DNA of 41,329 nt, from positions 12,936-54,264 of IMG/VR virus record IMGVR_UViG_3300030419_006644; one strand, written 5' to 3'. The stretch is from a virus. Positions 8,942 to 41,099 of this stretch are shown here, piece after piece (the first letter of the stretch is position 1; each line of letters starts with the position of its first letter). A program made the translations under genes and the position numbers. Under the pieces are notes generated by a model. That model saw nothing but the letters and a program-made list of their open reading frames with translations, made no database searches and was not told the DNA's origin.

Positions 8942-10010
8942 GATCCGCCGATTGTCACTGTTGAGTAGTAAATGTAATAATTAGTACCTGTCGATTGTAC
9001 AGTATTCGCACCACTTATAATATTTGTCGAATTAGCATTTCCAGTAAAGCTAAGGTCTCCATTGTTTATGTCTATACTCGTTATTGGAGAGTTACCAGTT
9101 ACCCCAATATTTTGTATGGTATTCCCTGTTACGCTAAGGGTGGAGTTGTTAGCTGTTAAATGGTCAGTGCTTACATGTATGTCGGAACTGGAATTTATGG
9201 TCGCGTCATTACCAGTAATATCAAACCTAGTATTGCCATATCCCAGAGCGGTGAATCCAGCATTGGCTGTTATTGTCTGTCTTTGATCCCCGCTATTACC
9301 ACTAAAGGTATAGTTTGCGGTTCCAGCATTCTGATCTATGTCCAGTGTTGTATCGCTATTCCCACTTATATATGCCGTTGAGTTACCTTGTATAACTATT
9401 CCAGATCCAGAATAATTAACATTGTTCAAGGTGCTATCGTTAATCGTTATGGGGGAGCCAGATACTCCATCTATCCTACCTGAATTTACAACATTAACAG
9501 TTAAGCCCGTTATGTTGGCGTCTCCTGAATACGAATCAGTAAAATATACTGTATTACTGCCATCATAAATCGCTATTGTCGAATAGGCTCCACTTACCTC
9601 ATTCGTTCCTCCAGTAATGTGTATGTTACCAGTAGCGCCAACGTAACCGCTGTATACATTTACTTTACCTGCCCCTGTCTCCGCGTATATGTAAGCATTA
9701 CTATTATTAGTTATATCAGCATTTACCCCCTCATTTGCCACTACAACATTTGCATTAGTAGAAGACACCGTAGTAGTTGCACCCGGCTCAGTGTAAAGAT
9801 TTACCGCTGTAGCTGACGCATTATTGGTGATATCAACATCTATTCCACTGTATTCATTGTGGATGGTTTGACCTCCACCAGTAATATTTACGTTGCTATC
9901 GTAAATATTATAGTTATCAATATTTAGCCCTGATACATCTCCGGAAAAATTAATATTTGTCCCAGTGGAAAGATCACTGAAAGTAAGTGAGCCAGATCCC
10001 TTTAGGTCTA
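1..10010 (-). repeat. Degenerate ITG(G) coding repeat spanning two genes
   Basis: On the plus strand almost every 60-base line contains one or more copies of ccagtaat, ccagttat, cccgttat or close variants, always in the same codon phase; on the minus strand these read as (I/V)-T-G. The repeat fills the whole partial gene at the left and the last ~360 residues of the gene ending at 8938. Units vary in length and sequence, so this is an old, diverged protein repeat rather than a recent DNA satellite. Confidence 0.85.
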
Positions 10011-13000: not shown

Positions 13001-15387
13001 GTTACGTATAAAGTATCCCCAACCCTTATTTGATTATGGGAAATTCCTAGAATAGTTGGGAAAATAGTGAGCGCTTCAAATGCCGCTATTTTATAATCTT
13101 TTTGCTGCGGGGTAGAAACCCCTTGGCTTACTGCATATATACTAGCCTTATCCCCAAGTCCCCTAGGTATATCGAAGGTTACGTAATTAACACCTTCAGG
13201 ACTAACGAGGTATTGAACGTTATCGGGACTCTTATAATCAAGCGTTGGGGCAAAATTTAAAGAATTTTTACCACTATCAACTGGATTGCCCATGTCCAGC
13301 GTACCAGAAGTATAAGCCGGATACAGATAATAGTTTGAGCCATGTAAATCCTCACCGCTCATAGTAATCGTATCCCCATACAATCCTGATCCGGGATATA
13401 CAAATACATTAGTAGGAGCTAAGTCTATGCTAAAAATGTCCTCAGTCTCGCAAGAAGAATATTCTGTTTGTAAGCGTAATGCTCCGTCTCTAGCCCCAGC
13501 TGGAACCCTGATTCGAATTCCAGTTTTTGGAGTTTCCGTTCCCGTAGGTAATATACGAGAAATTGTCCCTCTATTATCGACCCTAACTGTGACTATTCCC
13601 GTGCTTAGGGGATCCCCTGAAAAATGAACACCCGTAACTAGTTCTACATTTCCCCCAGTGATGGTTATATAGTTACCCCTTTGCTCCGTTGACGGGTGAA
13701 AACCACTACATACAACGTCAGGGGGTATTACTAAAAATTTATTAGATGAATAAGCTGTCCCTTGTGAATTACTAACAGTAAATATTTCGTTCCTGTTTCT
13801 ATAAAAAGCATCTAAAGCTAGGTAATCTGACTTAGGGGGTATAGTAACCAATAATCCAGTCGGATTAGACTCATTAGAACTTACCCATGTATCTATGGCG
13901 ACTTGACCATGCTTTACTGATGTTATCCCCGCTAAAGACTCTCCCCCAAGTAAAACCTGACTCCCATGATTTCCAGATAGCGGGGTAAAACCTGTTATTT
14001 CCGGGGCCCCAACAAAACTGAACGAGTCGCTTGACTGGGTTCCTAACCCAACTCCATTGTCAACAATTACCTTGTAGGGGCAAGAACTCGACATTCCCGG
14101 ACAATGCACACTTATGATTTGCTGTTCTGAAGATGTCTCCAATGGATCACCTTCAATACCGCTTATAGGCGCTAATATTTTTTGATTTAAAAATGTATTG
14201 TTGGCATGAGCACCACTAAAGTAGACTTTTAAATCATCTGTAAAGTACCCACTACCAGTAATTCTGATTATAGAATTCAACTCTGCCGATGGAGGCCCAA
14301 ACCCACTAATAACTGGCTCGTATTTTGCAAAATAAGCCCCCTGCTTCCAGCCCGTTCCGTGAGCGGTTTTTACCACAAGGTCCATGTAACCAGTGCCACT
14401 GGGAGAAGAAATTGACAGAGCCCCATTAGTTAAGCTGGTATAAGATACGGTTAATGGATCGAGTAAATTATGGGTAGTGCTTATGTCAAAAGAATGGCCC
14501 TTCGGAAAAGTGTAAATGCCCTCGACATCAACAAGATCCCTGCCCGTTACGGTATAGTATGTTGGAGCCCTATTCCCAGCTGGAATACCAGACGCGGGAG
14601 ACAGTCCATCGATATAGGGGGAACTTACTCTCAAATAGAAGTCAACGCCTCCAGTATGGAGATTACCTGCTAAATCCACTAAGTTTACAGAGCCCGAATA
14701 TGCATCATTGGGAACGTAGCCAGTAATAACGTCCGCTCCGCTTAATCCAAATCCAGTAATGCCGCCAGCAAAACTTACATCAAATAAACCGTCATTATTA
14801 CTTACTGCGGAGGGGATAATGTTTTCACCAGAGAGTATAATCTGGTCCCCCACATAACCTGAAGCTGGAGTTATCCCAATTAATTTAGCCGATACTCCGA
14901 GCCCCCCTATTTCCCCCTCTACCCCAGATTGACCCACTAATTTTAACGAGCCAGATATATTGCCCGTAGGGACTAATATCGGCAAAGCCCTTATATCAGT
15001 CACAGACCCAGACAAGACCTCTCCAGAAATTGATTCACTCCCGAAAAAGGCCCCTGTAACACCAGAAAACGCATTACCGGACGCAGTTAATATTTCCCCC
15101 GGCAATGGTGAATACCTATCTAAGCTAGTTATCTGAGGCGCAGGGACAAATTCTTGTGGGCTCTCACCAGAGGTGTTCTGGTGAGTAGATTGTAAAGTTA
15201 TTTTTCCCCATTGAGCATTTTGAGGAACTGTAGCCTCTAAGAAATTTCGGTTTATTGCGTAAAACGAAGCGGAAGTATCGTAAGCGGGTTGCTGACCAAA
15301 GTAAACATGAGTGACGCGATCAAAACCGTCGCCAGATACCATTATCTGACCGCCTATAGAACCCGTCAATGTTTCGATTAGAGCCAT
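8938..15387 (-). CDS. Mosaic tail fibre/adhesin: TIG/IPT array, EF-hand loop, LamG-like domain, beta-solenoid tail
   Basis: A 2149-residue protein. Residues 1 to about 1180 contain roughly eleven immunoglobulin-like TIG/IPT domains, each opening like ITGFTPLSGNHGSQVLLGG or LIGITPASGYVGDQIILSG. A calcium-binding loop DFNGDGIVTQHD lies at residues 953-964 (dockerin/EF-hand spacing D-x-N-x-D-G-x-V-x-x-x-D). Residues about 1209-1260 read as short stacked strands (YGDLRVHQSAYVKDRL, HGDIDVSGNYLLDG), typical of a fibre shaft start. Residues about 1270-1480 look like a concanavalin/LamG jelly roll (LKFNGVDQYATLPM, HSTWDGSSHKIYLSG). Residues 1735-1780 hold a VFVSLDGIDLTPIEDYSLLS module, and from about 1790 to the end the protein becomes ITG-type repeat. 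It follows the tube-like gene by 3 bp and overlaps the next gene by ATGA. Likely a receptor- or glycan-binding fibre; the ligand cannot be read from sequence. Confidence 0.85.
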   Translation of the reverse strand: MALIETLTGSIGGQIMVSGDGFDRVTHVYFGQQPAYDTSASFYAINRNFLEATVPQNAQWGKITLQSTHQNTSGESPQEFVPAPQITSLDRYSPLPGEILTASGNAFSGVTGAFFGSESISGEVLSGSVTDIRALPILVPTGNISGSLKLVGQSGVEGEIGGLGVSAKLIGITPASGYVGDQIILSGENIIPSAVSNNDGLFDVSFAGGITGFGLSGADVITGYVPNDAYSGSVNLVDLAGNLHTGGVDFYLRVSSPYIDGLSPASGIPAGNRAPTYYTVTGRDLVDVEGIYTFPKGHSFDISTTHNLLDPLTVSYTSLTNGALSISSPSGTGYMDLVVKTAHGTGWKQGAYFAKYEPVISGFGPPSAELNSIIRITGSGYFTDDLKVYFSGAHANNTFLNQKILAPISGIEGDPLETSSEQQIISVHCPGMSSSCPYKVIVDNGVGLGTQSSDSFSFVGAPEITGFTPLSGNHGSQVLLGGESLAGITSVKHGQVAIDTWVSSNESNPTGLLVTIPPKSDYLALDAFYRNRNEIFTVSNSQGTAYSSNKFLVIPPDVVCSGFHPSTEQRGNYITITGGNVELVTGVHFSGDPLSTGIVTVRVDNRGTISRILPTGTETPKTGIRIRVPAGARDGALRLQTEYSSCETEDIFSIDLAPTNVFVYPGSGLYGDTITMSGEDLHGSNYYLYPAYTSGTLDMGNPVDSGKNSLNFAPTLDYKSPDNVQYLVSPEGVNYVTFDIPRGLGDKASIYAVSQGVSTPQQKDYKIAAFEALTIFPTILGISHNQIRVGDTLYVTGINAFNTFENAIGISGTGLGASHDPGNLKQLEFLSKYNTKIDHYSDDSEASYFNLGDYFLPNDPALIVSKGDGEAFQYNADIRNHYFRSGLVNSDVTGVFVLPIQIGPNFVGTGHVFSFLNEPELLKNYRQNIVTPGPDSFTYQGKLYEGRFFNQYDFNGDGIVTQHDHVVWSGATKDTDYHNSGAFYSGFTGSYTMQRWEDVRYKTHTLEVLPEIIELNGINPLSGFRSEKVSIRGSGLTNVTGAMLHLRGDSFAGTLTYETTIVDTSDTLIDVLIPPTIFYGDSLIESGYLSVHSSFTSKNSSSNFESGYLKVIRPPEITGFSPARGIAGETEFVLGGYNLEHIDDFQLKSRDSSDAGVSGWGFTGLVDGSVGISGITPDENVFNPLPQEVDFEVTKNSPLLQSSLGKYTIVQGDLDVYGDLRVHQSAYVKDRLVASGDAFVHGDIDVSGNYLLDGAPLNLDDPFVYTLPRENKILHLSASSKISYTGAGATNWNDISKHKNTATLVNSPTFNTNELKFNGVDQYATLPMTENLKPQSFTLGVVFRPNEVGGTIATPIIEAPNLIPTELVSYQIAYDSTRRFYSTLTFTDNSSSTIFTSPVNTGMYHMVHSTWDGSSHKIYLSGTEVSSDAVGAKTISYTNQNLNILTNTSTSRFVEGDLKEVYMFSGAKNSTEINQIFDETNNIYVYDRNFVVSGGNIQSIAKDDPSKSVTIENNQIILTGDGASINLNGNEVDPTSDTFRFENVSLGTHLGFTGSQGTGTSTTLTSTDTLVGSIALNLPPSSVWEHVKVHFTTFLQTADNLQDVKVKIGSDLMNWPIVTTAQVETTNNESDNILASYVTEGYPSAHNGDSPLNLDVYAKLGSTHSDDDVATRRSLYAVGTYNKGSGAANMTFGVDNNAEFKFFPNTGEGSIIGTAVYTGDGGQDSFQLEYTEGDIERVFVSLDGIDLTPIEDYSLLSTTGVKIASAPNIGEEVLIRQISNSVVTQPTVYNMSIDLKGSGSLTFSDLSTGTNINFSGDVSGLNIDNYNIYDSNVNITGGGQTIHNEYSGIDVDITNNASATAVNLYTEPGATTTVSSTNANVVVANEGVNADITNNSNAYIYAETGAGKVNVYSGYVGATGNIHITGGTNEVSGAYSTIAIYDGSNTVYFTDSYSGDANITGLTVNVVNSGRIDGVSGSPITINDSTLNNVNYSGSGIVIQGNSTAYISGNSDTTLDIDQNAGTANYTFSGNSGDQRQTITANAGFTALGYGNTRFDITGNDATINSSSDIHVSTDHLTANNSTLSVTGNTIQNIGVTGNSPITSIDINNGDLSFTGNANSTNIISGANTVQSTGTNYYIYYSTVTIGGS
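12496..12531 (-). other. EF-hand/dockerin-type calcium loop inside the fibre gene
   Basis: Encodes D-F-N-G-D-G-I-V-T-Q-H-D, with acidic or Asn ligands at loop positions 1, 3, 5 and 12 and the invariant Gly at 6. A single loop is visible, lying between TIG/IPT domains. Calcium binding is inferred from the motif and could stabilise the fibre in seawater. Confidence 0.7.
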
Positions 15388-20116: not shown

Positions 20117-20824
20117 ATGAGCGTAAAAAGTAAAATTATAAAACATGCTAAACGCGAAATGCCAAATGAGTGTTGTGGGTTCATAGTGCAAAAAGAAAAA
20201 GAGCTAGACGTATTTGAATGTGTTAATGCTTCGGTTTCAAAAAATGAACATTTTAAAATCTCCCCAAAGGAATACCTAAAAGCGACAACCTTGGGGACAA
20301 TTACCTCCGTATATCATTCTCATACAAATGATAATCTGGAATTTTCCCATTTTGACAAAACTCAAAGCGAGGCCCAGAATATTAGGTATCTAATGTACCA
20401 CGTAGGGTCAAATTCTTTTGTTGAATATATACCCACGGGCAAAAAAGATGATCTTTTAGGTAGAAGTTATTCGGTAGGGGAAAGAGACTGCCTAACCTTA
20501 TTGAGAGACTACTACAGGACTAGACATGGGGTGAACATCAAAGATTATGAGAGAAATGAATCTTTCGATTACGGAGGAGAAGATCTTTTTAGGAGCAACT
20601 ATGAATCAGAAGGTTTTTTTGAAATAGAAAAATCTCAAATAAAAGAAGGAGATACGATCTTAATTAATAAATACGGAGAAAATTTTTTATCTCACGCTGC
20701 TATATACATGGGAAATGACACAATACTACATCATCCAGCAGGGGGATTTTCATGCATAGAAGAATATTCGAGAGCATTAAAAGAAAGAACTTTACTGGTT
20801 GTTAGGCATAATTTTTTAAGATGA
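20117..20824 (+). CDS. K: Tail protein K homologue: JAMM peptidase plus NlpC/P60 endopeptidase (copy 1)
   Basis: 235 residues, close to lambda gpK. The N-terminal JAB/MPN domain has an intact JAMM zinc motif: Glu18 in PNECCGF, then H67-S-H69-x7-S77-x2-D80 (YHSHTNDNLEFSHFD). The C-terminal NlpC/P60 domain has the nucleophile Cys125 in ERDCLTLLRDYY and the general-base His193 in LSHAAIYMG, with HHPAG after it. Family members cleave peptidoglycan cross-links or peptides during tail-tip assembly or DNA entry. The gene follows L by 12 bp with an AAGG-type site and overlaps the next gene by ATGA. Confidence 0.9.
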   Translation: MSVKSKIIKHAKREMPNECCGFIVQKEKELDVFECVNASVSKNEHFKISPKEYLKATTLGTITSVYHSHTNDNLEFSHFDKTQSEAQNIRYLMYHVGSNSFVEYIPTGKKDDLLGRSYSVGERDCLTLLRDYYRTRHGVNIKDYERNESFDYGGEDLFRSNYESEGFFEIEKSQIKEGDTILINKYGENFLSHAAIYMGNDTILHHPAGGFSCIEEYSRALKERTLLVVRHNFLR

Positions 20825-21657
20825 ATCTACCAAAGGAAATAAAAGACAAAATTATTTCTCACTCAAAAAGGGAATACCCAAATGAGTGCGGTGGGCTTAT
20901 TTTACGATCACAAGATGAAGACGTTGAGCTTGTTACACTTCAATTAAAAAACCTTTCGAGTAACCCCCAAGAAGAATTCGTGATTGGCAAAGAAGCAATA
21001 GATCTTTGTCGTAACGATATAGAATTCATATATCACTCGCATACCAAAGGGCAAAAGTCTTTTAGCGTAAGAGATAAAATGGTGAGTGAAAAATTAAACG
21101 TACCTTTGGTTTTATTTGATCATAAAAACAATAATTTTGATTTTTATCATCCAAATGGATTCATTGCCCCATTAATCGGAAGAACTTGGGGGGATACAAA
21201 TTCATGCAATAAGATAGGGTGTTTTTCTGTGGTGAGGGACTATTATAAAAAGGTTCTCAACATTGAAATGCCTGATTATGACAAAATAGAAATAGTGAAA
21301 GGGGTAAATCTCTCAGAGTCAGACATAACCACGATGCTCGCCGGAACAAAGTCTAATAAAAGATTTTCTGAGATGATAGAATCATATAGGTCAAATCAAT
21401 CATTCGACGAATATTTAAAACAGAGTGACTTTGTAGAAGTGAAGGATCTAAAAGAGAATGATGTAATAGGGATGAAAGGGACTGACAAAAAATTTGCAGA
21501 TAAACTAGGTATAGATTTTTCAATTCATTTTGCCATTTACCTTCGGGGAGGAAGTATATTGCATCAACCTTATATGAGGTCTTCTAAGGTAGAAAAATTA
21601 ACCAATAATTATAAATCATTAATCCATAAAATTTACAGGTATAAGGCTAAACTATGA
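20821..21657 (+). CDS. Second K-type JAMM plus NlpC/P60 protein (copy 2)
   Basis: 278 residues, clearly paralogous to the preceding gene. HSKREYPNECGGLIL parallels HAKREMPNECCGFIV, and the JAMM motif is complete: Glu22, H72-S-H74-x7-S82-x2-D85. The NlpC/P60 half keeps Cys134 (NKIGCFSVVRDYY) and His236 (FSIHFAIYL) followed by ILHQPY, but has about 40 extra residues between them, including a segment rich in Ser, Asn and Lys. Both active sites look intact, so this is not a decayed copy. It overlaps both neighbours by ATGA. The two enzymes may form a heteromer or have different peptide preferences; that is inference. Confidence 0.87.
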   Translation: MNLPKEIKDKIISHSKREYPNECGGLILRSQDEDVELVTLQLKNLSSNPQEEFVIGKEAIDLCRNDIEFIYHSHTKGQKSFSVRDKMVSEKLNVPLVLFDHKNNNFDFYHPNGFIAPLIGRTWGDTNSCNKIGCFSVVRDYYKKVLNIEMPDYDKIEIVKGVNLSESDITTMLAGTKSNKRFSEMIESYRSNQSFDEYLKQSDFVEVKDLKENDVIGMKGTDKKFADKLGIDFSIHFAIYLRGGSILHQPYMRSSKVEKLTNNYKSLIHKIYRYKAKL

Positions 21658-28843: not shown

Positions 28844-31800
28844 CTATCTGGGTTCGTGTAAAAGGCCACCGGGTCTTTGCTCTTTTACTATAGTCTCTAA
28901 CACTACTCCTCTTAGCGAATCTGCAAGTTTCTCGTTTCTCTCAAGGTCTCCGGTATCCCCTTCGTTATCTTTTTCACCTGACCCTTCAGCGCCTCTTTCA
29001 CCGCTAGTCTCTACTTCCGCCGTTGGCTCACCGCCACCACGACCACCATTAACGGTGATGCTGATATTATTGATCATTCCGCCGCTACCAGCTGCTTTAT
29101 CGCCTTCTTGGCCAGTTGCTAGAGTTTCTCCCTCCTTCTCGGACTCCTTGGTGGAAGATTCTTCCATTAGCCTATTCATGTTCTCAGCTAAATCAACAAG
29201 TTGGCTTATCTTTTCTGGGTCCCCTCCAGCACTTCCAGCCGTATCAAATAATCCACCACCGGGAACCACTCCACCTTCATGGAACGTAGGTACTAAACCC
29301 TTGTTTAATCTATTTAAGAATTCCGTTCCGTAAGTTTGAGTCGCTTGCGGGTCAAGAACGAATTCCCCTGCCTGTAAAAGAGCAGGGACCTCTTTACCAC
29401 CTGTAACATTTCGGCCTCCGATACCAAAACGTTTTACGAAACCTCCCTTCGCAAAGGTTTTAGTTCTAGGTAATTGCCAACCAAAGTCAATAACACCCGT
29501 ATTTCTCGCATCTTGAAAAGTCATTTCGTTGAAACGTTGACTCATTAAAGCGGAAGTGCTATCAAATTGATCTCCAGTACCAACATACCCAACCTCTCTC
29601 CATCCTCCGGTATTTGGATTTGGGATATATGTGCGACCCTGATTATCAGTGATCGGAACATTTGGTGGGGCTCCTCCAGAGTCCATCGCCTTGGCTGCAC
29701 GATTTGCGTTTATCTCGCCCCTCCATTCTGCCGCCTTCTTCCCTACCTCAACCATAGCGGCTGATATAACAGCGTTTAGACGACCAGCCTTTAGCACATT
29801 ACTTCTTTGATCTTGGAAACTCTGCATGGCTTCATTACGACGATCAGCTTCCATCTTTAAGAAATCTTCGTAATCTAAAAACTTATCCTGCCTAGTTTTC
29901 CTAAATTGGCTCTGAACATTTGATTCATCTTGGAATAAGGCAAAGTTACTCAATCTTTTATCTACTTGATATTTTGCCCTTCCGGGTCTGTCAGGGTCAT
30001 TCATCAGATAAAAGTTATCAAGCTGTTGCTTAAATCCTCTATTCCTGCCCTGCTCCATAGAAGGCGGTACTCCACTACGCCCAGTGTAACTAGGAGCATC
30101 ATCCATATTTACCTCTGGGAACATTCTGCCCCCCTTAAGATCCAGTAAAGGTTTATTCTTCCCTAAAGATGCAGGTAATGTTCCCCCACTAGCTGCCATA
30201 GCCACATTCCCCTGATTAAGATCCTCCATGATGGATGACCCATATTTTTGAACTGCTGATTTACGCATGACAAATTCGCCACCCGCCATCATAGCTGGAA
30301 CATCATCCTTATATCCGCTTCCACCTGTTACCATGCCGCCTGTATTGAATCTTTGCGGGACTAATCCCCCTTTAGAAAAAGTGCTCCATCGCGAGCCAGC
30401 GTATCCACCCATTGCCCCAATCGAACCTGCAATAACATTCTCTATAACTCTCCCAACCGTTGCCCTAAACAATACTCTTTGCATGTCCATCGCAACAGCC
30501 TTAGCAAAAGATTTAAATGCATCTTTTCCGCTTTGTGAACCATCGATCCATGAATCCCAAGCGCTTTCGAAAGATGAAGTAATACTTTGGGAAAGTTGAG
30601 CGACATCATTCATCAGATCTTCTTTCCAATCTGTCTGACTCGCTTTGATCTTGTTTTGCATTTGTCTTTGCAAAGTTTCCCCAAAGTTCATTTCCCCCCG
30701 CCTGAAGGCAGACATATCTTGCGCGTTCCTTGCCCCAGCAAGCTGGCGTCCTGTGCCTGTTCCTAATGCGAGGCTTTGCTCCGCTCTTAATACATTCTGA
30801 TGTTCTGAGAGTCTTTGAGTCCTCAAAGATTGATCGAACCCTTCGCCCATTTGGTATTTGAGCCTCAAAAGATCCTTATTCGCTTCCTGTTCTCCAATGT
30901 CGCCTTGCAATTTAAATTGCCGAGTAAGTTCTCCCCGCTGGGCTGGGTCAAGCGCTATGTTTAACTCCTTCAAAGTATTGCTTAATCTTTCTGTTTCCTC
31001 TTTGAATTTGTCAATCGGTAACTCCTGTAACTTTTTCGTAAGGTCTTCTTTTGCTTTCTGGAGTTCCTCGGTCTTTGTACTGTCTTGCTCAAGTAGAGGA
31101 ATATTCTTCATCAACTCATCTATTTCTCGCGTTTTAATCGAGTTAAGCAGACCCTGTTTAGTGGTTCCTAAAGCTAGATGACCATTGCTTGCCTCTGTAA
31201 GAGAGGCGCGTTCTTTCATCTTTGTGATTTCGAGATTATAAGCTGCTTTTCTATTTGCCTCGACTTCAGCTGGGATACCCTTTCTTACGTCTTCCAGTGC
31301 TCCTAGCTGTTTCTGTCCAGCTTGAAAGGTGGATAGCGCTTTCTTCTGTTCAGGGGATAGAAGGTGGAATACTGCATCAGAAGCCTTCTGCTCACCTGTC
31401 CTTACCTTATCAATGGACGTTTGCGAGATGCCCATCTCCAACAAGCTTTTCTCTCTACTCTCCTGAGTCGTTTGGATTTTGCCCATAGCTTGACTTATAT
31501 GCGTAAGCCTCTCTTGAGCATCTTGACTCCTAATTTGTAGTGCTGAATCCCTAGGATCTCTCCCCATAGCCAATTCCATAGGTCTCCCCATAGCTATAGC
31601 TCTCTCCCTAGAAGCGGTCAAATTGGCAAAAGTTCTCTGATAGTACTTTTTCATTGCGTTTGGATCTCTCAGGTCATCTGTACCCTCTAAACCTTTCGGT
31701 AATTTTGTTAAGCTATCGATTATTGCGAGATCTCTGCTCATCTGACTTCCCGACGCCACAGCTTTTCTCGATGCGTCCTGCCCTACTTGTACCAAGCCCG

Positions 31801-34800
31801 ACACTTTTGGGCTCGTTGCGGTGTTAGGTTTACCACCCAACTCAAACAACCTTGTTTTCGGGTTCCATTTATACCCTGAAGGGGTTGTTCCGCCTCCCGG
31901 TGTTGCAATGGCTTGTGATGCAACATTCCAATTGCCGCCGCCAACTTGCCTCATTATATAGTTTCCCAAATCATTTTCTTGTTGCTGGAACATTCCTTTC
32001 GTGTCCGGCCTTTGATTCAGATCCCGTATGTGAGACAAATGACTTTGCAGGACTTGCACGTTTGTCTCAGGGCCAAATTGTTGAGAACCTCTAGTTCCAC
32101 CCTGCGTTAGTGTGTTTACTAATGTTCTAGCTTGAGTTTGAGCCTTTCGGACGCCTCCACTGAACGCCGGGTTTTTGGCTGGGGTCGCGCTCCACACAGA
32201 ACCCCCATAAGGATTATTGGGATCGATATATTTTGCTTCCTGTTGATAAATTTGCATTATCAACTTTTTCAAAGCCTCTTTCGATACTCCGACTTTTTGG
32301 AATCCTGCTTTATCACCCTCACCCTCCTTGTCGTACCACTTGGCAATAGCGTCATCAATATTGCCCTTTCTCATATCCTCCGAGGACATAAGTTCCCTAA
32401 AATCATGAAGCCAATTTTTCATAGGGTTACCAAAGGCTCCGTGCTTAGTGCGGTATTGAGCCTTCATTGCCGGAATCTGCACACCCGACACATCCATTGC
32501 TTGTTGAAGCATGGGGGACGCTTGATAAACCGCAGAATCTTCATGAAATCCCTTCTCGTCAGGATCGGCAGATAAGTACTGCATCCAACTTTGAGGGTTA
32601 GCAGCATCAACCGTGATCGTAGTCGGCTTTCCGTTCCTCATTATCTTCAATTGTTCTTTATAACCCGGAATCTTACCTTCTTGGATTTCGCGCTGTTTCC
32701 TCATTAGTCTACTAATAGGAAACGCAGTATCATACCCGCCCTTCGGCCCCGCGCCACCTGATCCTTGCCATGCTGGAGCAGCAACTGCCGAATACATACC
32801 CCGTGATCGCTGACCACCAGCCGATGAAAATGGACCGGGCTTTCTTAAAAAATGCTCTTCACCTGTACCCTTCTGATTCCAAACTCCGAAGTCAGAATTC
32901 TGGCTCCATGCAGCCATTCTACCGAATGTTTGGTGCATCGGTTCGCGAGCTAAGGGTAAGTTTCTATTTAGCCGGTCAGGATTGGCCAGTAAAGAGCCTA
33001 ACTGCGAACTCGCCCTTTCTCTATTTTGATTCAGGCTGTAGGCATTATTAATCTCTCTCATTTGCAAACTAAGCTGTTGTGGCAGAGTAGACATCGCATG
33101 TGTCAAAAGCCCGGAGGCATTGATTAATTCTACATTTGTGTTGATTAGTTGAGCAGTAATTTCGGTATTTGCGCCCATTGCCCGAACCAATTCAACTTGA
33201 AGATCGGATTGCCCTTTTCGGATTCTTGTCTCTGCGGCTTTTTTCTCCCTATCTATATCCCCCGACTTCATTGTTCTAAGGATTTGGTATGCTATATCCC
33301 CATGCTGGCTTATTGGCCGATCAGCCATTCTTGCATTGCCACCCATCGGGAAAGCTGCTTGACCATGTTGTCCGAAAATAGCACCACCTTCGCCTCTTAA
33401 GTAGGACTCAGCATCTTTGAGACTCATTTTTTGTATCGCGGATGAATGCTTACCCCCCAAAAGGAAATCAAGCATCTGACCGCCTCTTGCTGCAAATCTG
33501 TCTTTTTTCGTTTGCCTGAACGAATCTCCTAATCCGGACCTATTTAAATCAAATCCCATTCCTTCAAGGGCTCCCATTGCGGCAACCCTAGAATCTAACA
33601 TTTTCATTCCCTCAAAAGTAGCTGGATGGCCTGAACCCCCAGAAAAGCCTTCAGCAGCGGCGAAAAATGCTGCTGGGCCTTGACCACCAAAAGACGAAGC
33701 TTGCATTTTCATTCTGTGCTGGAAGTCTGCGTTACTTTTTGCAACTGTATTATTTATTTTTAATAAGTTATTTTGATGGTATGTAGCTACTGTATTGTTA
33801 TTTATTTGAGTAGCAAGCTTGTCCATTGCACTTCGAATCTCCGTTTTGCTCTTATCATCGACGGTAGGATCATTCAATATCTCCTTGTAAAGACCCATAT
33901 GATCACCGGGAGCACCTTGCATCATTAGCTTACCTAACAAAGCCTTTGCTTGTTGTCCCCTAGTGCCAGCGCCAGAGGTTATCCCTCGTGTACCTTGTGT
34001 CAATAATGAGCCACCAGCACGTTGATAGGCCGCAACGTTCTGCATGGACAAGGAAGCTAAGTTTCTCTGTTGCGCTTGGGCCATGCTTCGGTCCGACATA
34101 TCAGAATGACTGATATTATACAGTAATTTACCTATCGCCTCTTGATTTTTTATAGAAGATTTAAAATGCGTTTCCGATATTGTTATATATCCTTGCGATG
34201 CGTTTGCTGCATTAATAGCGGCTGTTTTTAATTTAATTACAGAACCGGCCAATTGATTGACGTCTTTCGAAGCTTCTTTAGAAACGTCCATTAACTTTTC
34301 CTCTGCTTCGACCATTGCCTCCAATTGCTCCCACGCAAATTCAACGTCTCTAAAGTTTTCAAATAAGGGGTCGCCTTTCAGTTCTTTCATTGCTTCCCCT
34401 TTACGCCCCCCTCCGTGAAGCGCTATGTTTCTGGCCATAGTTTTCATTTGGGAATATGAAAATCTCTCGTCTTTACCTATAGTAATAGCTTTATCAAAAA
34501 CTCCCCCTTCGCCTCTTATTTTTTTCTCGTCCAATGCTGCCATGCTTGCCTTTGCAAGTATGTCTTGCATTCCCGTCACATCACCTGTCGATGCAGCTGC
34601 CGCTAATTCCCTAATTCTGTTTGGATCGCCTAAGCCCTGAAGAGCTATTGCGCCTTTTTGCCGTAGTGCTGCAAGAGTGGTGGCTCCAGCGCCCGATTGC
34701 ATGGCATCTACGTATTCTTGTTGAGCTTTAACAAAGTCACCTGTGGCAGACGCTGCTTCTTGCTTAAGAGCAACTTCTGCCGCATAAACGTTCCTTAAAT

Positions 34801-37800
34801 CATCTAGAGTAGATTTAGATTGTTCAGCATAGTCTGTTATCCAACTATACGCCCCAACAGCAGCACCTAATGCAGCACCCACACCAAGACCCACGCCCGT
34901 ACCGACTCCCGGCACAACTGACCCCATTGTCGCGCCCATAGCTGCGAAACTTGCCACGGAGGACGCTCCACGCACATTGGACGCTGCCTGTCTTCCAGCT
35001 TTTGTATTTTGATTTATCCCCGCTGCCAGCGAATGACCAACCATTGGAGCAAAAAAGCCAATACCCATTCCTAATTGGCCCATCATACCAGCGTTTCTAG
35101 CAAACGCACCCCTCGATTTTTCTTGGGCTATTTGTTTTTTTAGCTCTCTCTTGTCCTTGTCGGCTGACTTTCTTATCTCCCTTTTTTCCTTTGCGGCTGC
35201 TGATTTTTCATTTCTTTTCTCTTTCAGCCTTTCTTGTTCCACTAAAACCGCTGGACTATGGTAAACTTGTCCTACTCGGCTCATCGCAGTTCCTGCCACT
35301 CCAGCAACTTGAGCCTGACGAGCAGCAATATTTCTCTCTGCTGTACCCTGATATGTATCGACTCTCAATAAGTTTTGTTTAGCTCTTTTTAATTCATTTA
35401 TATCTGCTGTTCGAGCGTCTGTTCCTTTCAGGCCTTCGAGCCTTTTGATTTCTGTATCTATGTTTGATATATTATAACTGGCTCCTGTTCCTGTAATAGC
35501 ACCAAGGGATTTCCCTTGTAATCCGGCTGATCTAAACATGCGTCTATTACTTAAAGCCTTATCTCGTGTAGCTTCAGCGGCGCTTATTCTGCGTTGATCT
35601 CTTGCATCTGCGGCTTCCCATCCCCCTCGGAATAAATTCCTTACTGTCTTGGAGCCTCCTTTACCCTCGATCATATTGGCTAATCTTTTTGCCGTATCAT
35701 CGACAACGGATTGCGTTAAAGTTACTTGTGTCCCTGCCCTTGGACCTGAAACCAATTCATACTGAGCTTGGCCAACAAACGACCCATAAGTTCTCTTAAA
35801 CTCATTGATAATCTTCATTTGATCAGCCTGAGTCTTTACTTGTCCTGTGCCGAGCTTATCCAAACCTTCAGAAACTTTACTAAGGTCCGTCATATTCTGC
35901 TGGTATTTTTTGTATGTCTCATGCGCCTTGGATGCCTCTTTACCTGCGGCATTTTGCACGGTCCTAGCATGTTTTACTTCTTCTGTCAGAGTAGCCATTT
36001 GCTTTTCCATGTCCCTCAAAGCGGCATCCCATCCCAATGCGTTCGCTCCATAACCCATAGCTCCCATTGCTAACGGATTAAAATTAGGAACAAATCCACC
36101 ACTCATACCTGCTCTTGCAGGATTTGGGTGATTCATAACAGCCTTTCTTAAAGAAGAATAAGTCGGCTCATCTCTCGTATTACCAACTACGGGGCCAGAG
36201 TAATTCGGAGTATCGACAGTAGTAGCGTAAATTTGAGATCTAGAAAGACCACTTGCTTTTTTCTCTCTCGCGAAAGCGGCTTGAATCGGGTCTACAAAAT
36301 TTGGAATATTGCCTCTGCTAAAAGTCCTACTAAAAGTCATCCACTCTTCATTACTCCATTCCTTATCGTGAGTCTTCTTTACATTCCATAATTTATCAAA
36401 GTTCGGCTGCTTTTTCTTAGCGTCGGCATAAGCCTTTCCCACGAAAGTTGAGGAAAATTCACCGTGAAGCCTCTTTACTCCGTGCTTTTTAAGCAATGAA
36501 ATAATTTTTTCGTTTGCCAATAAATCCGTAAGGACTTTACCCCCAACGACTTGCCCAGCGTTAATCGTTCTAATAGGGTCTCCTGCTGCTTTAGCATCCC
36601 TTAATTGTCTAAAGAGACTACGGAGACCCCCCTGACCCTTTATGTATTTTATGTCCCATGCACCCGTGTCGAAGTTTCTCCCTCCCATCTCAGACCAACT
36701 TGAACCCCCTCCGCGAGAGGCTGATGGACCTCGAACAATATCCGATAAGGGAGCAGCCACTGGCCCCGTTCTACGTAAACCGAAAGGGTTATTAAAGTTA
36801 GGGATAGACCCACCAGCAGCAGTAGTCCACCCCTTTGTTCCCATAAAGCTTCTCGCATTATCAAATGCCTGTCTAAATATTGGAGTTTTTAAACCTTGTA
36901 CTCCTGACCTAGCATTAAAAAAGTCATCTATAATTCGAAAATCATTAGAACTAAATTGCCCAAGTCCTTTTTGATTTTTCCATTGGGCTATTTCTTTAAC
37001 AACTCTGCGGTAATGTTCAGGGAATGACTGCATCGCTTTACCCCCAAGAGTTCCACGGGCATCAATAGTAGCCGTAGATTTTACATCCATAGGGAACCAT
37101 TTTCCTTGATGCCTTAATGCTCCCTCTACCGGATCCAATCCTCGCCCAACATTAGCCTCTGTTCCGCTAAACCTAGGACCAATACTAGGGTTCTTTGACG
37201 CAAAGAGTAAATCTTCATAAAATTTTCCCGAAGATTTAGAAGTCGGCTTTATTTTAGTGTTTAATCTTTGAAAAAACTCTTGGGTCGATACACCACTAGC
37301 TGCTGATTTTATAGCTGCTGCTTTGGCTGGATTAGCTTGAAGGAGAGCTTGAAAAGCCGACGAATTTACATTAACAGGACCAGACAAATAATTAGCCAAT
37401 GGGGCAGAACCACCCAAAATTCCACCGGGGCCAAGACTCATTCCCGGTTTATCAATACCAAGAGGCCCCTTCATATTAAATCCAGTTAAAACTTTACCTA
37501 TTAAACTATACGCCGCAGCTGTATTTTCCCCAAGTTGCCCAGCGCTTCCCCTAGACGGCTTAGAAAAAAGAGATGAACTTGCATATCGCGGATAAAGCCC
37601 ACTAGCACCCGGACCTCCAGAGGTCGGAGAAACTGGCCTTGCGCCATACAGGCTTGTGATAGGCATATTAAAAGATCCATACACTGGGCTCATTTTAGCG
37701 AAATTTGGAATATGACCACCACTTAGCCCTCCTCTAAGTTGATCCTTCAAATCTGCGTGGGTCATTCTGAGTTGAGGATTGGAAGTTCCATGACTTGCAG

Positions 37801-40042
37801 GGTCAATCACGAATTTCCTTTTATCAAAGTTTAAGCCAACTATGTCTTTAACCGCTATTTCTGACCAACCCGGATCACTTAGCTTCTTCTTAAACCGAAA
37901 ATATTTATAATCTCCAGATAAATCGAATTGCGAATGAGACTCTTTGCCTCCAATGCCAAAGTTTTCCCGACTAGCTTGCCTACCTCCTATAGTATGGACT
38001 TTCCCCCCCTTCATATACTGTATGCCAAATGGGCGAGCAGATTTCCCAGCGGTATTTCTAAGGAACGTAAGAACTTCCTGCATTCCCATTACTGGTTGTT
38101 TATGTATGGGGATTGCTGCAAAATTTGGAATAGAATAAGGATCTATCCCCAATTTTTTTATGGATTCTTTCTTATGTGCTTTTCCAGCGGAAGAACTTTG
38201 AGGAGGATTTATAAAAGGCTGTGCAAAACCCGGAACGTGTTTAATTTTTTCGGCTGTGTTATAAGTAACATTCCCAAGTCCAGCGATGTTAGTTTGCCTA
38301 ATTGCTCCGGGCATATACCCGCCGGAAATAGCACCTATAATTTCTGAGCCTCTTCTATTATAATTCGGAATATGACCTCTTGCCCTACCTCCGGGCCTAC
38401 CTCTTCCCGGATTAAAAGTACCAGCATCTCTCCCCCTGATTACAGGGCCACCGCCGCCGACCACAGCGCTCTTAGCGGTACTTGCGGAAAACATTGCGAT
38501 ATCTTTAGCTACCTGAGCTTGCTGCTGGAGAACTTGCAGGACGCTATTTTCCAATTGCCTCCTTGTCATTAAACCAGCTTGCACCGCCTTAAGATATCCG
38601 GGTTGCTTGGAGAGTTCTTGACTAATTAACTGCTCAGTCTTAGCTACCTTCATTGCGTGAGTTTGAAGGTTCATCATTTCTAACGCAGATTCAGAAATAA
38701 ATTTAAAAAGTTTTGCGCCTAATTTAGCACCTATAACGGCTACCAAAGCCAAGCCCGGACCAGCAAGAAAAGACCCAATTCCTTTTAGCATTCCCTTTGC
38801 CATTTTTACGCCAAGGGCTTCACCATCCATAGTCTTCCCTGACTCGAACATGGAATTTAATCCACTTACTATCTTTTGAGCGGAGGGGCCAAGAACAGCA
38901 CCCCCAAGGCCTTTGCCAGCTTGCATCAAATGAGCTTTTAATTTTATGATTTGAGCGTCTAGAGTTTTATTGAGTTCTTCATTTCTCTCTATGGCCTCAT
39001 TTGTGGCGCTGGCCGATGTTTGCACTGCTCTTGCATAGTTCGAATGACTCTTGCTAAGATCACTCAATAAGGCTCGCAAAGTATTCATTTGGAAAACACC
39101 AGCGACTGTTTCTGCCGTATGGGCTTGCTGCGCTCTTGTTAGCTGTGGGAATTTTTTAGCTAAATTACCCAAAACTGTCATAGCTGGAAGCATTTCCCCC
39201 TGAAGATTTCTTACGGCAACCCCAAGGCTCTCCAATTGATCTAAAGTGTCGGTTCTTTGTATTCTGGTAAAAATACTCTTAAGACCATTACCAATAACCG
39301 GACCACCACGAGCAGTCGTCTGTTGCAGAGAAGCTACCGCACCTAACAACTGATTAAAGTCTACTTGTACATCTTGCGCCGTACTACCAACTCGCTTCAT
39401 GGCTTCAGCAAGATCTTTGGTACTTACAGCAAATGCGGCATCAACATTTGCCATTTTATTTACTATTTGAGTAGAATTTAAAGCTGACCTATTAAATGTA
39501 TTGATTGCGGCAGTAAGCGAAGCGACTGCTGATTCTGCGTCCATCCCAGAAAGACGAGTTAGTATAAGCGCATCTCTAGTTCTTAGCAGGGTCTTTTCCA
39601 TCGATAAACCCTGACGAGAGAGTTCTTTTGCTGCTGTTGCTACGGTCTGAAAAGATTGACCAGTATTTCCTGCAACATTAAACAACTCTTTAGAAAAACC
39701 CTGAAGCTGTGTCTTATTAGCTCCTAAGATTACATTAATATCTTTTAACTCCTTCTCAACTTTTATCATGGAGTCGAGCAAATAAGAGAAAGCTCTTTGG
39801 AGGCCCATTATCGCACCAGCTGAAGCGCCAAAAGCTAAAACACGAGCATTAGAAGCGTCTAGAGATTTTGAAAACTCTGTAACTTGACCAGTGATTTCCC
39901 CTAAAGGCCTTTTATAAGCATTACCAAGAGCCCTAGCTGAACGACCATGCTGCTGGACGGCTTGCTCTACCCTTCTTAGCGATTTTGGGTCTAAATAAGC
40001 CTCTACGCTTAATCGTACCGATCCAACATTATCTATAGCCAT
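28844..40042 (-). CDS. Giant tape measure protein with embedded modules
   Basis: 3732 residues, among the larger tape measures. Residues about 1-380 match the TP901-type tape-measure core (AKELSRQGLSMEKTLLRTRD, QTTARGGPVIGNGLKSIFTR). A hydrophobic segment lies near 415-445. Residues 555-1320 are unusual: short segments separated by (G)-x-[IV]-P-N-[FY] motifs at about 559, 639, 779, 1080, 1245 and 1318, including an SH3-like insert and one with PD-(D/E)XK-type residues. From 1330 on, long charged helices and coiled coils alternate with a Gly/Ala zipper near 1690-1740 (GVGTGVGLGVGAALGAAVGA), a possible membrane segment for DNA delivery. The C-terminal part has two VPA(M/L)xxxGEFV motifs near 3255 and 3558 and ends in EQRPGGLLHEPR, a usual tape-measure ending. 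It sets tail length; about 1.5 angstrom per residue would give at most ~560 nm. Confidence 0.93.
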   Translation of the reverse strand: MAIDNVGSVRLSVEAYLDPKSLRRVEQAVQQHGRSARALGNAYKRPLGEITGQVTEFSKSLDASNARVLAFGASAGAIMGLQRAFSYLLDSMIKVEKELKDINVILGANKTQLQGFSKELFNVAGNTGQSFQTVATAAKELSRQGLSMEKTLLRTRDALILTRLSGMDAESAVASLTAAINTFNRSALNSTQIVNKMANVDAAFAVSTKDLAEAMKRVGSTAQDVQVDFNQLLGAVASLQQTTARGGPVIGNGLKSIFTRIQRTDTLDQLESLGVAVRNLQGEMLPAMTVLGNLAKKFPQLTRAQQAHTAETVAGVFQMNTLRALLSDLSKSHSNYARAVQTSASATNEAIERNEELNKTLDAQIIKLKAHLMQAGKGLGGAVLGPSAQKIVSGLNSMFESGKTMDGEALGVKMAKGMLKGIGSFLAGPGLALVAVIGAKLGAKLFKFISESALEMMNLQTHAMKVAKTEQLISQELSKQPGYLKAVQAGLMTRRQLENSVLQVLQQQAQVAKDIAMFSASTAKSAVVGGGGPVIRGRDAGTFNPGRGRPGGRARGHIPNYNRRGSEIIGAISGGYMPGAIRQTNIAGLGNVTYNTAEKIKHVPGFAQPFINPPQSSSAGKAHKKESIKKLGIDPYSIPNFAAIPIHKQPVMGMQEVLTFLRNTAGKSARPFGIQYMKGGKVHTIGGRQASRENFGIGGKESHSQFDLSGDYKYFRFKKKLSDPGWSEIAVKDIVGLNFDKRKFVIDPASHGTSNPQLRMTHADLKDQLRGGLSGGHIPNFAKMSPVYGSFNMPITSLYGARPVSPTSGGPGASGLYPRYASSSLFSKPSRGSAGQLGENTAAAYSLIGKVLTGFNMKGPLGIDKPGMSLGPGGILGGSAPLANYLSGPVNVNSSAFQALLQANPAKAAAIKSAASGVSTQEFFQRLNTKIKPTSKSSGKFYEDLLFASKNPSIGPRFSGTEANVGRGLDPVEGALRHQGKWFPMDVKSTATIDARGTLGGKAMQSFPEHYRRVVKEIAQWKNQKGLGQFSSNDFRIIDDFFNARSGVQGLKTPIFRQAFDNARSFMGTKGWTTAAGGSIPNFNNPFGLRRTGPVAAPLSDIVRGPSASRGGGSSWSEMGGRNFDTGAWDIKYIKGQGGLRSLFRQLRDAKAAGDPIRTINAGQVVGGKVLTDLLANEKIISLLKKHGVKRLHGEFSSTFVGKAYADAKKKQPNFDKLWNVKKTHDKEWSNEEWMTFSRTFSRGNIPNFVDPIQAAFAREKKASGLSRSQIYATTVDTPNYSGPVVGNTRDEPTYSSLRKAVMNHPNPARAGMSGGFVPNFNPLAMGAMGYGANALGWDAALRDMEKQMATLTEEVKHARTVQNAAGKEASKAHETYKKYQQNMTDLSKVSEGLDKLGTGQVKTQADQMKIINEFKRTYGSFVGQAQYELVSGPRAGTQVTLTQSVVDDTAKRLANMIEGKGGSKTVRNLFRGGWEAADARDQRRISAAEATRDKALSNRRMFRSAGLQGKSLGAITGTGASYNISNIDTEIKRLEGLKGTDARTADINELKRAKQNLLRVDTYQGTAERNIAARQAQVAGVAGTAMSRVGQVYHSPAVLVEQERLKEKRNEKSAAAKEKREIRKSADKDKRELKKQIAQEKSRGAFARNAGMMGQLGMGIGFFAPMVGHSLAAGINQNTKAGRQAASNVRGASSVASFAAMGATMGSVVPGVGTGVGLGVGAALGAAVGAYSWITDYAEQSKSTLDDLRNVYAAEVALKQEAASATGDFVKAQQEYVDAMQSGAGATTLAALRQKGAIALQGLGDPNRIRELAAAASTGDVTGMQDILAKASMAALDEKKIRGEGGVFDKAITIGKDERFSYSQMKTMARNIALHGGGRKGEAMKELKGDPLFENFRDVEFAWEQLEAMVEAEEKLMDVSKEASKDVNQLAGSVIKLKTAAINAANASQGYITISETHFKSSIKNQEAIGKLLYNISHSDMSDRSMAQAQQRNLASLSMQNVAAYQRAGGSLLTQGTRGITSGAGTRGQQAKALLGKLMMQGAPGDHMGLYKEILNDPTVDDKSKTEIRSAMDKLATQINNNTVATYHQNNLLKINNTVAKSNADFQHRMKMQASSFGGQGPAAFFAAAEGFSGGSGHPATFEGMKMLDSRVAAMGALEGMGFDLNRSGLGDSFRQTKKDRFAARGGQMLDFLLGGKHSSAIQKMSLKDAESYLRGEGGAIFGQHGQAAFPMGGNARMADRPISQHGDIAYQILRTMKSGDIDREKKAAETRIRKGQSDLQVELVRAMGANTEITAQLINTNVELINASGLLTHAMSTLPQQLSLQMREINNAYSLNQNRERASSQLGSLLANPDRLNRNLPLAREPMHQTFGRMAAWSQNSDFGVWNQKGTGEEHFLRKPGPFSSAGGQRSRGMYSAVAAPAWQGSGGAGPKGGYDTAFPISRLMRKQREIQEGKIPGYKEQLKIMRNGKPTTITVDAANPQSWMQYLSADPDEKGFHEDSAVYQASPMLQQAMDVSGVQIPAMKAQYRTKHGAFGNPMKNWLHDFRELMSSEDMRKGNIDDAIAKWYDKEGEGDKAGFQKVGVSKEALKKLIMQIYQQEAKYIDPNNPYGGSVWSATPAKNPAFSGGVRKAQTQARTLVNTLTQGGTRGSQQFGPETNVQVLQSHLSHIRDLNQRPDTKGMFQQQENDLGNYIMRQVGGGNWNVASQAIATPGGGTTPSGYKWNPKTRLFELGGKPNTATSPKVSGLVQVGQDASRKAVASGSQMSRDLAIIDSLTKLPKGLEGTDDLRDPNAMKKYYQRTFANLTASRERAIAMGRPMELAMGRDPRDSALQIRSQDAQERLTHISQAMGKIQTTQESREKSLLEMGISQTSIDKVRTGEQKASDAVFHLLSPEQKKALSTFQAGQKQLGALEDVRKGIPAEVEANRKAAYNLEITKMKERASLTEASNGHLALGTTKQGLLNSIKTREIDELMKNIPLLEQDSTKTEELQKAKEDLTKKLQELPIDKFKEETERLSNTLKELNIALDPAQRGELTRQFKLQGDIGEQEANKDLLRLKYQMGEGFDQSLRTQRLSEHQNVLRAEQSLALGTGTGRQLAGARNAQDMSAFRRGEMNFGETLQRQMQNKIKASQTDWKEDLMNDVAQLSQSITSSFESAWDSWIDGSQSGKDAFKSFAKAVAMDMQRVLFRATVGRVIENVIAGSIGAMGGYAGSRWSTFSKGGLVPQRFNTGGMVTGGSGYKDDVPAMMAGGEFVMRKSAVQKYGSSIMEDLNQGNVAMAASGGTLPASLGKNKPLLDLKGGRMFPEVNMDDAPSYTGRSGVPPSMEQGRNRGFKQQLDNFYLMNDPDRPGRAKYQVDKRLSNFALFQDESNVQSQFRKTRQDKFLDYEDFLKMEADRRNEAMQSFQDQRSNVLKAGRLNAVISAAMVEVGKKAAEWRGEINANRAAKAMDSGGAPPNVPITDNQGRTYIPNPNTGGWREVGYVGTGDQFDSTSALMSQRFNEMTFQDARNTGVIDFGWQLPRTKTFAKGGFVKRFGIGGRNVTGGKEVPALLQAGEFVLDPQATQTYGTEFLNRLNKGLVPTFHEGGVVPGGGLFDTAGSAGGDPEKISQLVDLAENMNRLMEESSTKESEKEGETLATGQEGDKAAGSGGMINNISITVNGGRGGGEPTAEVETSGERGAEGSGEKDNEGDTGDLERNEKLADSLRGVVLETIVKEQRPGGLLHEPR
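36833..37270 (-). other. PD-(D/E)XK nuclease-like insert in the tape measure
   Basis: Tape-measure residues about 925-1070. GKFYEDLLFASKN supplies a helix Glu (E943), LDPVEG an Asp (D970), and WFPMDVKST the D-x-K pair (D986, K988), giving the E ... D-x15-D-x-K order of the PD-(D/E)XK fold. Flanked by P-N-F motifs at 779 and 1080. Activity is not demonstrated. Confidence 0.42.
37802..38095 (-). other. SH3/WYL-like insert in the tape measure
   Basis: Tape-measure residues about 650-747, between the P-N-F motifs at 639 and 779. The pattern PFGIQYMKGGKVHTIGGR, then YKYFRFKK, then WSEIAVKDIVGLNFDKRKFVI resembles a small beta-barrel phage protein family that reads F-x-(V/I)-x-(F/Y)-x-K-x-G-x-x-R ... 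Y-R-x-I ... I ... Y-x-V. Recognised from memory, so moderate to low confidence. Confidence 0.4.
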
Positions 40043-40082: not shown

Positions 40083-41099
40083 CTAAACACCGTGCAATTT
40101 CATGAGGTCTTGCATACTTAATTCCCCTCCCTTTTTATGTGCTTCTTTGGCTAAATTAACAAATTCCTCGTTTTGGTCAGCAGCCCCAAGAGATTGTAGC
40201 TCTTCCTTAGAGGCCCCCACTAAAGATGAGCCGCCAGTTTTGTCAGATCCTCCTGTTTTTTCCATAGCTTCTTGGGCATTCTGAGACTGCTCATACCATT
40301 CTATTAATTTGTCTGGATCATTTTTCATTTCTTCTGGAGGTTTATTCTTAGAGCGAGTCATTAAGCCTTTAAAATACCGACCATAACCATATAATTCCGA
40401 TTGAAAAAAGGTTAATTTTGCAACTGGCTTCCCAAAGAAAAAATAAGCGTTATCTTCTGAAAGATAAAAATGATTAAGAAAAAAAGAACTCAAAGAAATT
40501 TTCTTCAACGACTTCTCTTTAAACCTTGTCATTACCTCGTTATAATTGCCACACATTTCATTTAATTCCACATTAGACAACTCCTCAAAATCCTCGACAG
40601 TATAAAATGATTCGCGAAGGCTTCCATCCTTGAAAATAGAATTAAATACATAATACTCGTTTATCTTTTTTCCCGCGAAAACCTCACACGTAAGCCCTAA
40701 AAGTTCTTGTTTTTTATTCTCTAAATCGTAAAGCTCTTGTTCTGCCGAGCTAATTTCCTCGTTCATCTGATCTATTTCTTTTTTTATGAACAGTTTCCCT
40801 TTAGAATGTATCAGGTTTCTAATAAATCCAGTTAGCTCTATTATTTTAGCTTCTTCTTTGCTTGTCCATAATTCGTCTTTTTTTAATTGCTCTAGTTTAT
40901 CCTTTTCTCTTTCGAGTCCTTTGTCTTCGGCTTTGCCCTCGACTTTCTTTTTGTATGAGTCTATGTCGGCAGCATCATGGAGGGTGAGGTGTTTTACATA
41001 AACGGTATTGCCCCTGAAATTAAAAGTAGAATAGCCATTAAGGATATCTACTAAAATCATCCTTAGTTGACTTGTGCCTATTTCTTCCTCTTGAGACAT
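40083..41099 (-). CDS. Probable tail-assembly chaperone or adaptor upstream of the tape measure
   Basis: 338 residues. Opens MSQEEEIGTSQLRMILVDIL, followed by a short beta segment (NFRGNTVYVKHLTLHD), then long charged helices at residues about 50-130 (EREKDKLEQLKKDELW, NEEISSAEQELYDLENKK) with coiled-coil character. The C-terminal 60 residues are polar (GGSDKTGGSS) and end MQDLMKLHGV. I do not recognise a named family. The slot directly before the tape measure is where long-tailed phages encode the tail-assembly chaperone, so that role is inferred from context only. No frameshift signal was seen near the 3' end. The ATG has no convincing ribosome site and sits next to a terminator; a downstream Met14 with AAGG immediately before it is an alternative start but is too close. 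Confidence 0.7.
   Translation of the reverse strand: MSQEEEIGTSQLRMILVDILNGYSTFNFRGNTVYVKHLTLHDAADIDSYKKKVEGKAEDKGLEREKDKLEQLKKDELWTSKEEAKIIELTGFIRNLIHSKGKLFIKKEIDQMNEEISSAEQELYDLENKKQELLGLTCEVFAGKKINEYYVFNSIFKDGSLRESFYTVEDFEELSNVELNEMCGNYNEVMTRFKEKSLKKISLSSFFLNHFYLSEDNAYFFFGKPVAKLTFFQSELYGYGRYFKGLMTRSKNKPPEEMKNDPDKLIEWYEQSQNAQEAMEKTGGSDKTGGSSLVGASKEELQSLGAADQNEEFVNLAKEAHKKGGELSMQDLMKLHGV

Follow-up and report, generated by a model that had tools for sequence, protein, structure and literature searches.

The window, a stretch of 41,329 nucleotides from a 54,264-base IMG/VR virus record (IMGVR_UViG_3300030419_006644), contains an ORF of 3,732 aa on its minus strand (28844-40042) without an internal stop. 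Tape measure proteins (TMPs) set the length of the tail. The ORF was recognized as a siphophage TMP from the TMP family domains it carries and from being a very long ORF adjoining tail genes. Every PHROG match with E <1e-6 was annotated as 'tail length tape measure protein'. Besides an N-terminal PhageMin_Tail domain, there was a match to Tape_meas_lam_C slightly under the cut-off. The lambda-type tail genes M, L, K-like and J were found in the same record. These tail-tip genes implied that the host of the phage was probably Gram-negative. The TMP lies on the strand opposite to the M-L-K-J genes. Two adjacent genes on the plus strand, 20117-20824 and 20821-21657, both matched the K-type minor tail protein family (phrog_30), and the latter has JAB and NlpC/P60 domains. 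Two giant ORFs on the minus strand, 2-8941 (at least 2,980 aa) and 8938-15387 (2,149 aa, with a Laminin_G_3 domain), probably encode tail fibres or adhesins. The features of the TMP region are listed below; related loci are numbered with L.

40083..41099 (-), conserved gene just ahead of the TMP; related loci have 42-45% identical homologues, which lie upstream of their TMP wherever this was checked
28844..40042 (-), tape measure protein, 3,732 aa, from PhageMin_Tail and PHROG matches
39098..39673 (-), conserved N-terminal tape domain (PhageMin_Tail, aa 124-315; Pfam E 7e-28); N-terminus 38-65% identical to relatives
38360..38374 (-), motif 1, HIPNY (aa 557-561), from the motif scan
38135..38359 (-), constant first module, GGYxPG...GxVTYNxxExVK...QPxIxPPxxSxAG (aa 562-636), 38-64% identical to six relatives
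38120..38134 (-), motif 2, SIPNF (aa 637-641); N-terminal homology to most relatives stops here or within ~60 aa
37715..38119 (-), cargo module 1 (aa 642-776), beta-rich; homologue in L016 only; beta strands of pLDDT ~70-84 in an otherwise poor model
37700..37714 (-), motif 3, HIPNF (aa 777-781), from the motif scan
36809..37699 (-), cargo module 2 (aa 782-1078), tentatively PD-(D/E)xK-like, E943...D970/E973...D986-x-K988, weak, from the L016 alignment
36794..36808 (-), motif 4, SIPNF (aa 1079-1083); L016 homology breaks off here
36311..36793 (-), cargo module 3 (aa 1084-1244), 'AGxVVGpRI' class, in seven TMPs and in differing slots
36296..36310 (-), motif 5, NIPNF (aa 1245-1249); homology to L016, L227, L228 and L267 picks up again here
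36095..36295 (-), constant last module with VxNxrDEP (aa 1250-1316), in 196 ORFs among the loci examined
36080..36094 (-), motif 6, FVPNF (aa 1317-1321), from the motif scan
30455..30649 (-), Tape_meas_lam_C-like stretch (aa 3132-3196; Pfam E 1.2e-4, slightly under cut-off)

The gene upstream of the TMP had no match in a family search; judging by its position, it is possibly a tail assembly chaperone. In Lactococcus phage 949 (L307:4194-5186) and Bacillus phage FADO (L309:6095-7081), a site-specific recombinase/integrase lies just upstream of the TMP. A 949-type recombinase was considered for the window gene and rejected, as the window gene has no similarity to the gene upstream of the 949 TMP. 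Near the C-terminus, two DDVPAMLxxGE[FY]V...LNxG elements (about 29290-30290; TMP aa 3255 and 3559) were present in every relative looked at. They bear a faint likeness to junction modules of one clade (L003).

All six [IV]PN[FY] motifs of the window TMP fall within aa 557-1321 (window 36080-38374) and are separated by segments of 75, 135, 297, 161 and 67 aa. Composition-preserving shuffles of the protein gave an expectation of 0.02-0.03 motifs. Elsewhere in the long open frames of the window, the single other [IVL]PN[FY] was an LPNF at 27442 (+). The string of six P-N-F motifs noticed in a preliminary description of this DNA is thus real. That description also placed Gly-rich linkers before most of the motifs. 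A glycine stands two residues ahead of the I/V in five of the six, but motif 2 (DPYSIPNF) has none.

A degenerate DNA search of the viral collection for GGHIPNFA returned 15 stretches, nearly all within ORFs with 2-8 motifs, and two further motif patterns returned at least 120 and 89 stretches. Loci with an ORF carrying at least two motifs numbered at least 183, the window's own included. To avoid circularity, relatives were also recruited independently of the motif, with the N-terminal tape domain as the sole query; 578 relatives were confirmed and 80 loci were kept. All 71 TMPs of at least 1,150 aa in this set carried motifs, between 2 and 9 each (median 4), and the motif thus recurs in relatives. 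The consensus in this set was G-[FYH]-[IV]-P-N-[FY]-[AS], with the glycine present in 94% of 270 distinct copies. The motif was confined almost to one region: there was none in 38,400 residues N-terminal of it, 299 in the 88,652 residues inside it and 10 in the 56,254 residues after it.

The motif was absent from the best-matching cultured-phage TMPs among those read, three in number (Lactococcus 949, Bacillus Stahl and Bacillus FADO); the best N-terminal identity to cultured-phage TMPs was ~25-28%. Thirteen matches to GGH[IV]PNFA were found in bacterial and archaeal genome contigs. We took them as chance because none lay in an ORF with at least two motifs. A search of 50,697 phage records, from which records close to the window may be missing, with the window insert, the inserts of two relatives and two last-module queries revealed no real relative, and a scan of viral contigs with the window insert alone gave no match.

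We aligned many TMPs around the motif and compared the content of their segments, as the preliminary description had proposed. In BLAST alignments between TMP pairs of <75% identity, 81% of the ends and 56% of the starts were within 15 aa of a motif, compared with 24% for random positions. Homology between the window TMP and L016 extends over aa 1-1083 (motif 4) and picks up at aa 1244 (motif 5), with ~935 aa of other sequence in L016 in place of the 161 aa in the window. L227 and L228 resemble the window TMP in the N-terminus (53%) and the last module (53-59%), and their cargo between these two parts differs from that of the window. Among 51 TMP pairs with 90-100% N-terminal identity, 12 had cargo without BLAST similarity at E 1e-3; pairs with fully identical N-termini were counted apart, and some contigs were duplicated, which means fewer independent contigs than the number of pairs suggests. 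TMPs that were 93-98% identical N-terminally could have cargo without BLAST similarity, with a two-sided switch at the motif. Between L250 and L254, for instance, the identity was about 0.9 up to a GFIPNF, at chance level in the cargo and about 1.0 from the next GFIPNF onwards; the DNA identities before, within and after the cargo were 0.93, 0.23 and 0.93. The motif is therefore a regular module border, and the content between the borders varies among relatives.

These abrupt DNA-level steps between near-identical tapes are best read as recombinational exchange, which is also the simpler reading. In three of the four swapped pairs that were read closely, however, the two cargos were both of the NUC-A class at the profile level. 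Because some swapped pairs share a class in this way, fast divergence within a class contributes alongside exchange.

The 333 inter-motif segments fell into 106 BLAST clusters. Profiles for 18 cargo classes and the last module gave at least 45 domain strings, some of them from contigs that end early. The cargo is combinatorial in domain order; the class of the window's cargo module 3, with seven members, occurs in different slots. Except for two single-motif fragments, the profile matches were confined to multi-motif ORFs, which says little about copies elsewhere because the loci were centred on TMPs.

NUC-A was the commonest cargo class and was present in 49 of the 71 TMPs recruited without the motif. 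It is hypervariable, with a median top-residue frequency per column of only 0.25. Against this background, Asp172, Glu/Asp192 and Lys194 were found in all 71 modules and Glu150 in 69 of them, and Gly146 was invariant. The module thus has the conserved acidic, acidic and (D/E)xK residues of a PD-(D/E)xK active site. This conservation shows that selection on NUC-A is strong at an E-D-(E/D)xK site, of the type usual for PD-(D/E)xK nucleases. An AF2 model (L156:4630-5313) was a confident alpha/beta globule (pLDDT 86.7), with the Glu in a helix, the Asp by a short bridge, the E/D-x-K in a strand and a further helix; the core with which it was compared is alpha-beta-beta-beta-alpha-beta. Foldseek searches of the model against PDB and BFVD gave no significant match, and a search of PDB sequences with the NUC-A profile gave no plausible relative. 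As the confident model matches nothing significantly in these two databases, its identity as a nuclease is likely rather than proven. The model may represent an undescribed variant of a nuclease fold.

Other enzyme families were recognized in the cargo at different levels of support. Staphylococcal nuclease (SNase) was above the Pfam cut-off (1.8e-9), GHKL/HATPase and GNAT (best E 7e-5) were slightly under it, and one module gave a polynucleotide kinase-like match (PHROG E 5e-6). Kinase-, ART-, HAD-, ParB- and zinc-peptidase-like modules are suggested by motifs; in Pfam, their support was weak or absent. Modules with an HExxH-like motif were seen by eye only in L016, L065 and L291-L293, with weak Pfam support, and a search of PDB sequences with one HAD-like module gave no plausible relative. 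In L293 (11797-12864 and the flanking modules), nuclease-like, GHKL/HSP90-type ATPase, HEAAH peptidase-like and GNAT-like modules stand in a row. A cargo module at L281:8798-9115 has a ParB_N-like stretch (DGNHRFELAQLAGIKNIPAQY; Pfam E 0.005).

The E...D/E...DxK pattern of cargo module 2 is partly common to L016 in the alignment, and hhalign showed no profile link between this module and NUC-A, the main nuclease-like class. The three cargo modules were modelled together with low confidence (pLDDT 48), apart from the beta-rich stretch, and Foldseek gave no significant match for this model. Because of the low confidence of the model, the activities of the three modules are uncertain; we claim no definite function for the window TMP, and the case made below rests on the TMP family. 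The earlier impression that the segments do not look like coiled-coil tape was supported by the enzyme signatures of several modules and by the NUC-A model. We also compared the constant first and last modules (hhalign probability 93%, E 4e-7). As this similarity rests mainly on the shared flanking motifs, we do not claim a common origin for them.

The codons of the motif bear on what it is. At Gly, Asn and Phe, synonymous codons were used much as in the background; I/V and Pro showed a moderate bias, and the 308 motif copies were encoded by 169 different 18-mers. Because the Gly, Asn and Phe codons are near background, the constraint appears to act mainly on the peptide, and a pure DNA signal was rejected. 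A peptide-level constraint of this kind would suit a processing site as well as an element for docking or folding. PNF codons were common to copies within one protein more often than expected (0.31 versus 0.17), and recombination between copies has left a trace as well. Most likely, the motif is a short linker of hydrophobic character or an element for docking or folding, by which the modules stay separate inside the tail. This we favour over the main alternative, a processing site, which the preliminary description had offered beside folding punctuation. Cutting of each G-x-IPNF by a virion or host protease, which would free the modules before or after ejection, could account for the regular border, the flexible Gly-rich lead-in and the strict P-N-F core. 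For polyvalent proteins, in which a metallopeptidase domain is frequent though not universal, processing by zincin-like peptidases has been proposed (PMC5512222), and an HExxH-like module occurs in a few relatives, such as L016 and L291. However, such peptidase-like modules are found in few members only, no protease was seen among the genes scanned, and cuts at every border, those of the constant modules included, would sever the tape. We consider proteolysis rather unlikely. It is more doubtful still that the motif serves mainly as a homology stretch for cassette recombination, without a protein role of its own. The coincidence of breakpoints with the motif and the excess of shared PNF codons within proteins both agree with that view, but the background codon use and the diversity of 18-mers point to selection mainly on the peptide, and P-N-[FY] is strict across very divergent TMPs.

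On the whole, we interpret the motif-bordered region as a cargo bay inside a siphophage TMP, with modules that are probably enzymatic and would be delivered; we give this reading a probability of about 0.62. The N-terminal tape domain and the constant first module are followed by 1 to ~7 modules and then by the constant DEP module and the rest of the tape, with a G-[FYH]-[IV]-P-N-[FY]-[AS] element at each module border. Inside the tail lumen, the modules would be carried along within the TMP, and they would enter the host envelope or cytoplasm as the TMP leaves the tail before the DNA. There, the modules might be enzymes for early takeover or counter-defence that target host DNA, proteins or defence, and arms-race selection may drive the swapping of modules. 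The lambda TMP touches the inner-membrane ManYZ during injection (PMC13190303), and from such TMP biology we infer the delivery of modules into the host. CIS proteins related to TMPs carry functional effectors (PMC11126660, PMC13277306), which shows that TMP-like proteins can carry functional domains. In its part on interchangeable cargo, the proposal that the segments are cargo delivered with the TMP is supported comparatively, by the homology breaks, the enzyme signatures and the NUC-A model.

Two other views of the segments were weighed against the cargo bay. They might be variable surface or decoy regions that evade TMP-sensing defences such as SNIPE, rather than delivered enzymes. SNIPE recognises the TMP as its target and escape mutations map to the TMP (PMC13190303), and the segments are hypervariable. 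However, active-site-like residues are invariant within the otherwise hypervariable modules and recognisable enzyme families recur; we regard this view as very improbable. Ordinary fast-evolving tape, in which the motif and borders arise by chance or as alignment artefacts, is hardly credible. TMPs can look mosaic through unequal rates and coiled coils (PMC10684548), but the shuffles and the density of the motif in the family, the alpha/beta model and the Pfam domains all speak against it, and several pairs of near-identical TMPs with two-sided DNA-level breaks contradict it, unless every one of those contigs were mis-assembled.

The cargo bay has likenesses to several known systems. Polyvalent proteins, described from phages and conjugative elements by Iyer et al. 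2017 (PMC5512222), are likewise single polypeptides with several enzymatic domains unrelated to each other and are presumed to enter the host along with the DNA, and the repertoires overlap (nucleases, ART-like, metallopeptidase-like and P-loop domains). Two or more domains of disparate predicted activity occur in one polypeptide in relatives such as L293; the window's own modules were modelled at pLDDT 48. The carrier here differs in being a tape measure in which a border motif repeats and the end modules are constant, and tape measures are not mentioned in that paper. As in polymorphic toxins, including the phage MuF toxins (PMC5576092), effector modules that vary greatly and can be exchanged sit on a carrier that stays constant. 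The modules here, however, are multiple and internal (about aa 640-1245 of 3,732) instead of lying at a C-terminal tip, and the carrier is a tail tape measure. For these reasons, the TMPs work like polyvalent proteins and polymorphic toxins but are a standard member of neither. The CIS effectors Tme, which carries an endonuclease, and Sle1 (PMC11126660, PMC13277306) likewise are TMP-like proteins with a diversifying functional domain in a phage-tail-like tube. Their domain is C-terminal and belongs to bacterial contractile injection systems, whereas the present proteins are genuine phage TMPs with internal, motif-bordered cassettes. The window comes from a virus contig with a DNA polymerase and lambda-type tail-tip genes, not from a CIS cluster, and no sheath or CIS domain was seen among the genes scanned in its record. 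PhageMin_Tail, the lambda_C-like region and the lambda-type M, L, K-like and J genes resemble those of siphophages with TMPs of the lambda gpH type, but the best-matching cultured ones among those read (Lactococcus 949, Bacillus Stahl and FADO) lack the motif array. The motif, or motif-bordered arrays in TMPs, was not described in the literature searched, which covers few subscription journals and no preprints. Motif-bordered cassettes inside a genuine TMP thus appear to be undescribed.

A survey of phage protein mosaicism found a mosaic signal in TMPs, but did not confirm genuine recent cases (PMC10684548). The TMP family described here, in contrast, provides clear cases of recent tape measure mosaicism. 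Tape measures that are nearly the same except for one insert between motifs amount to a natural experiment. As interchangeable, probably enzymatic modules lie within the tape measure in a large group of uncultured tailed phages, the protein payload that the tail may deliver along with the DNA would be a changeable one. The family suggests that uncultured phages have a large stock of probable early-infection enzymes without annotation. More tentatively, G-x-[IV]-P-N-[FY] could be a general loading or docking (or release) signal in the tails of this phage group, such that the tail lumen could take up and deliver any domain flanked by it. If so, these phages would maintain, within the tape measure, a library of injected effectors that is fed by recombination. 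This would be a natural plug-in system for protein delivery that differs from both head-packaged proteins and CIS effectors, and a portable signal of this kind would show how a tail can carry foreign domains.
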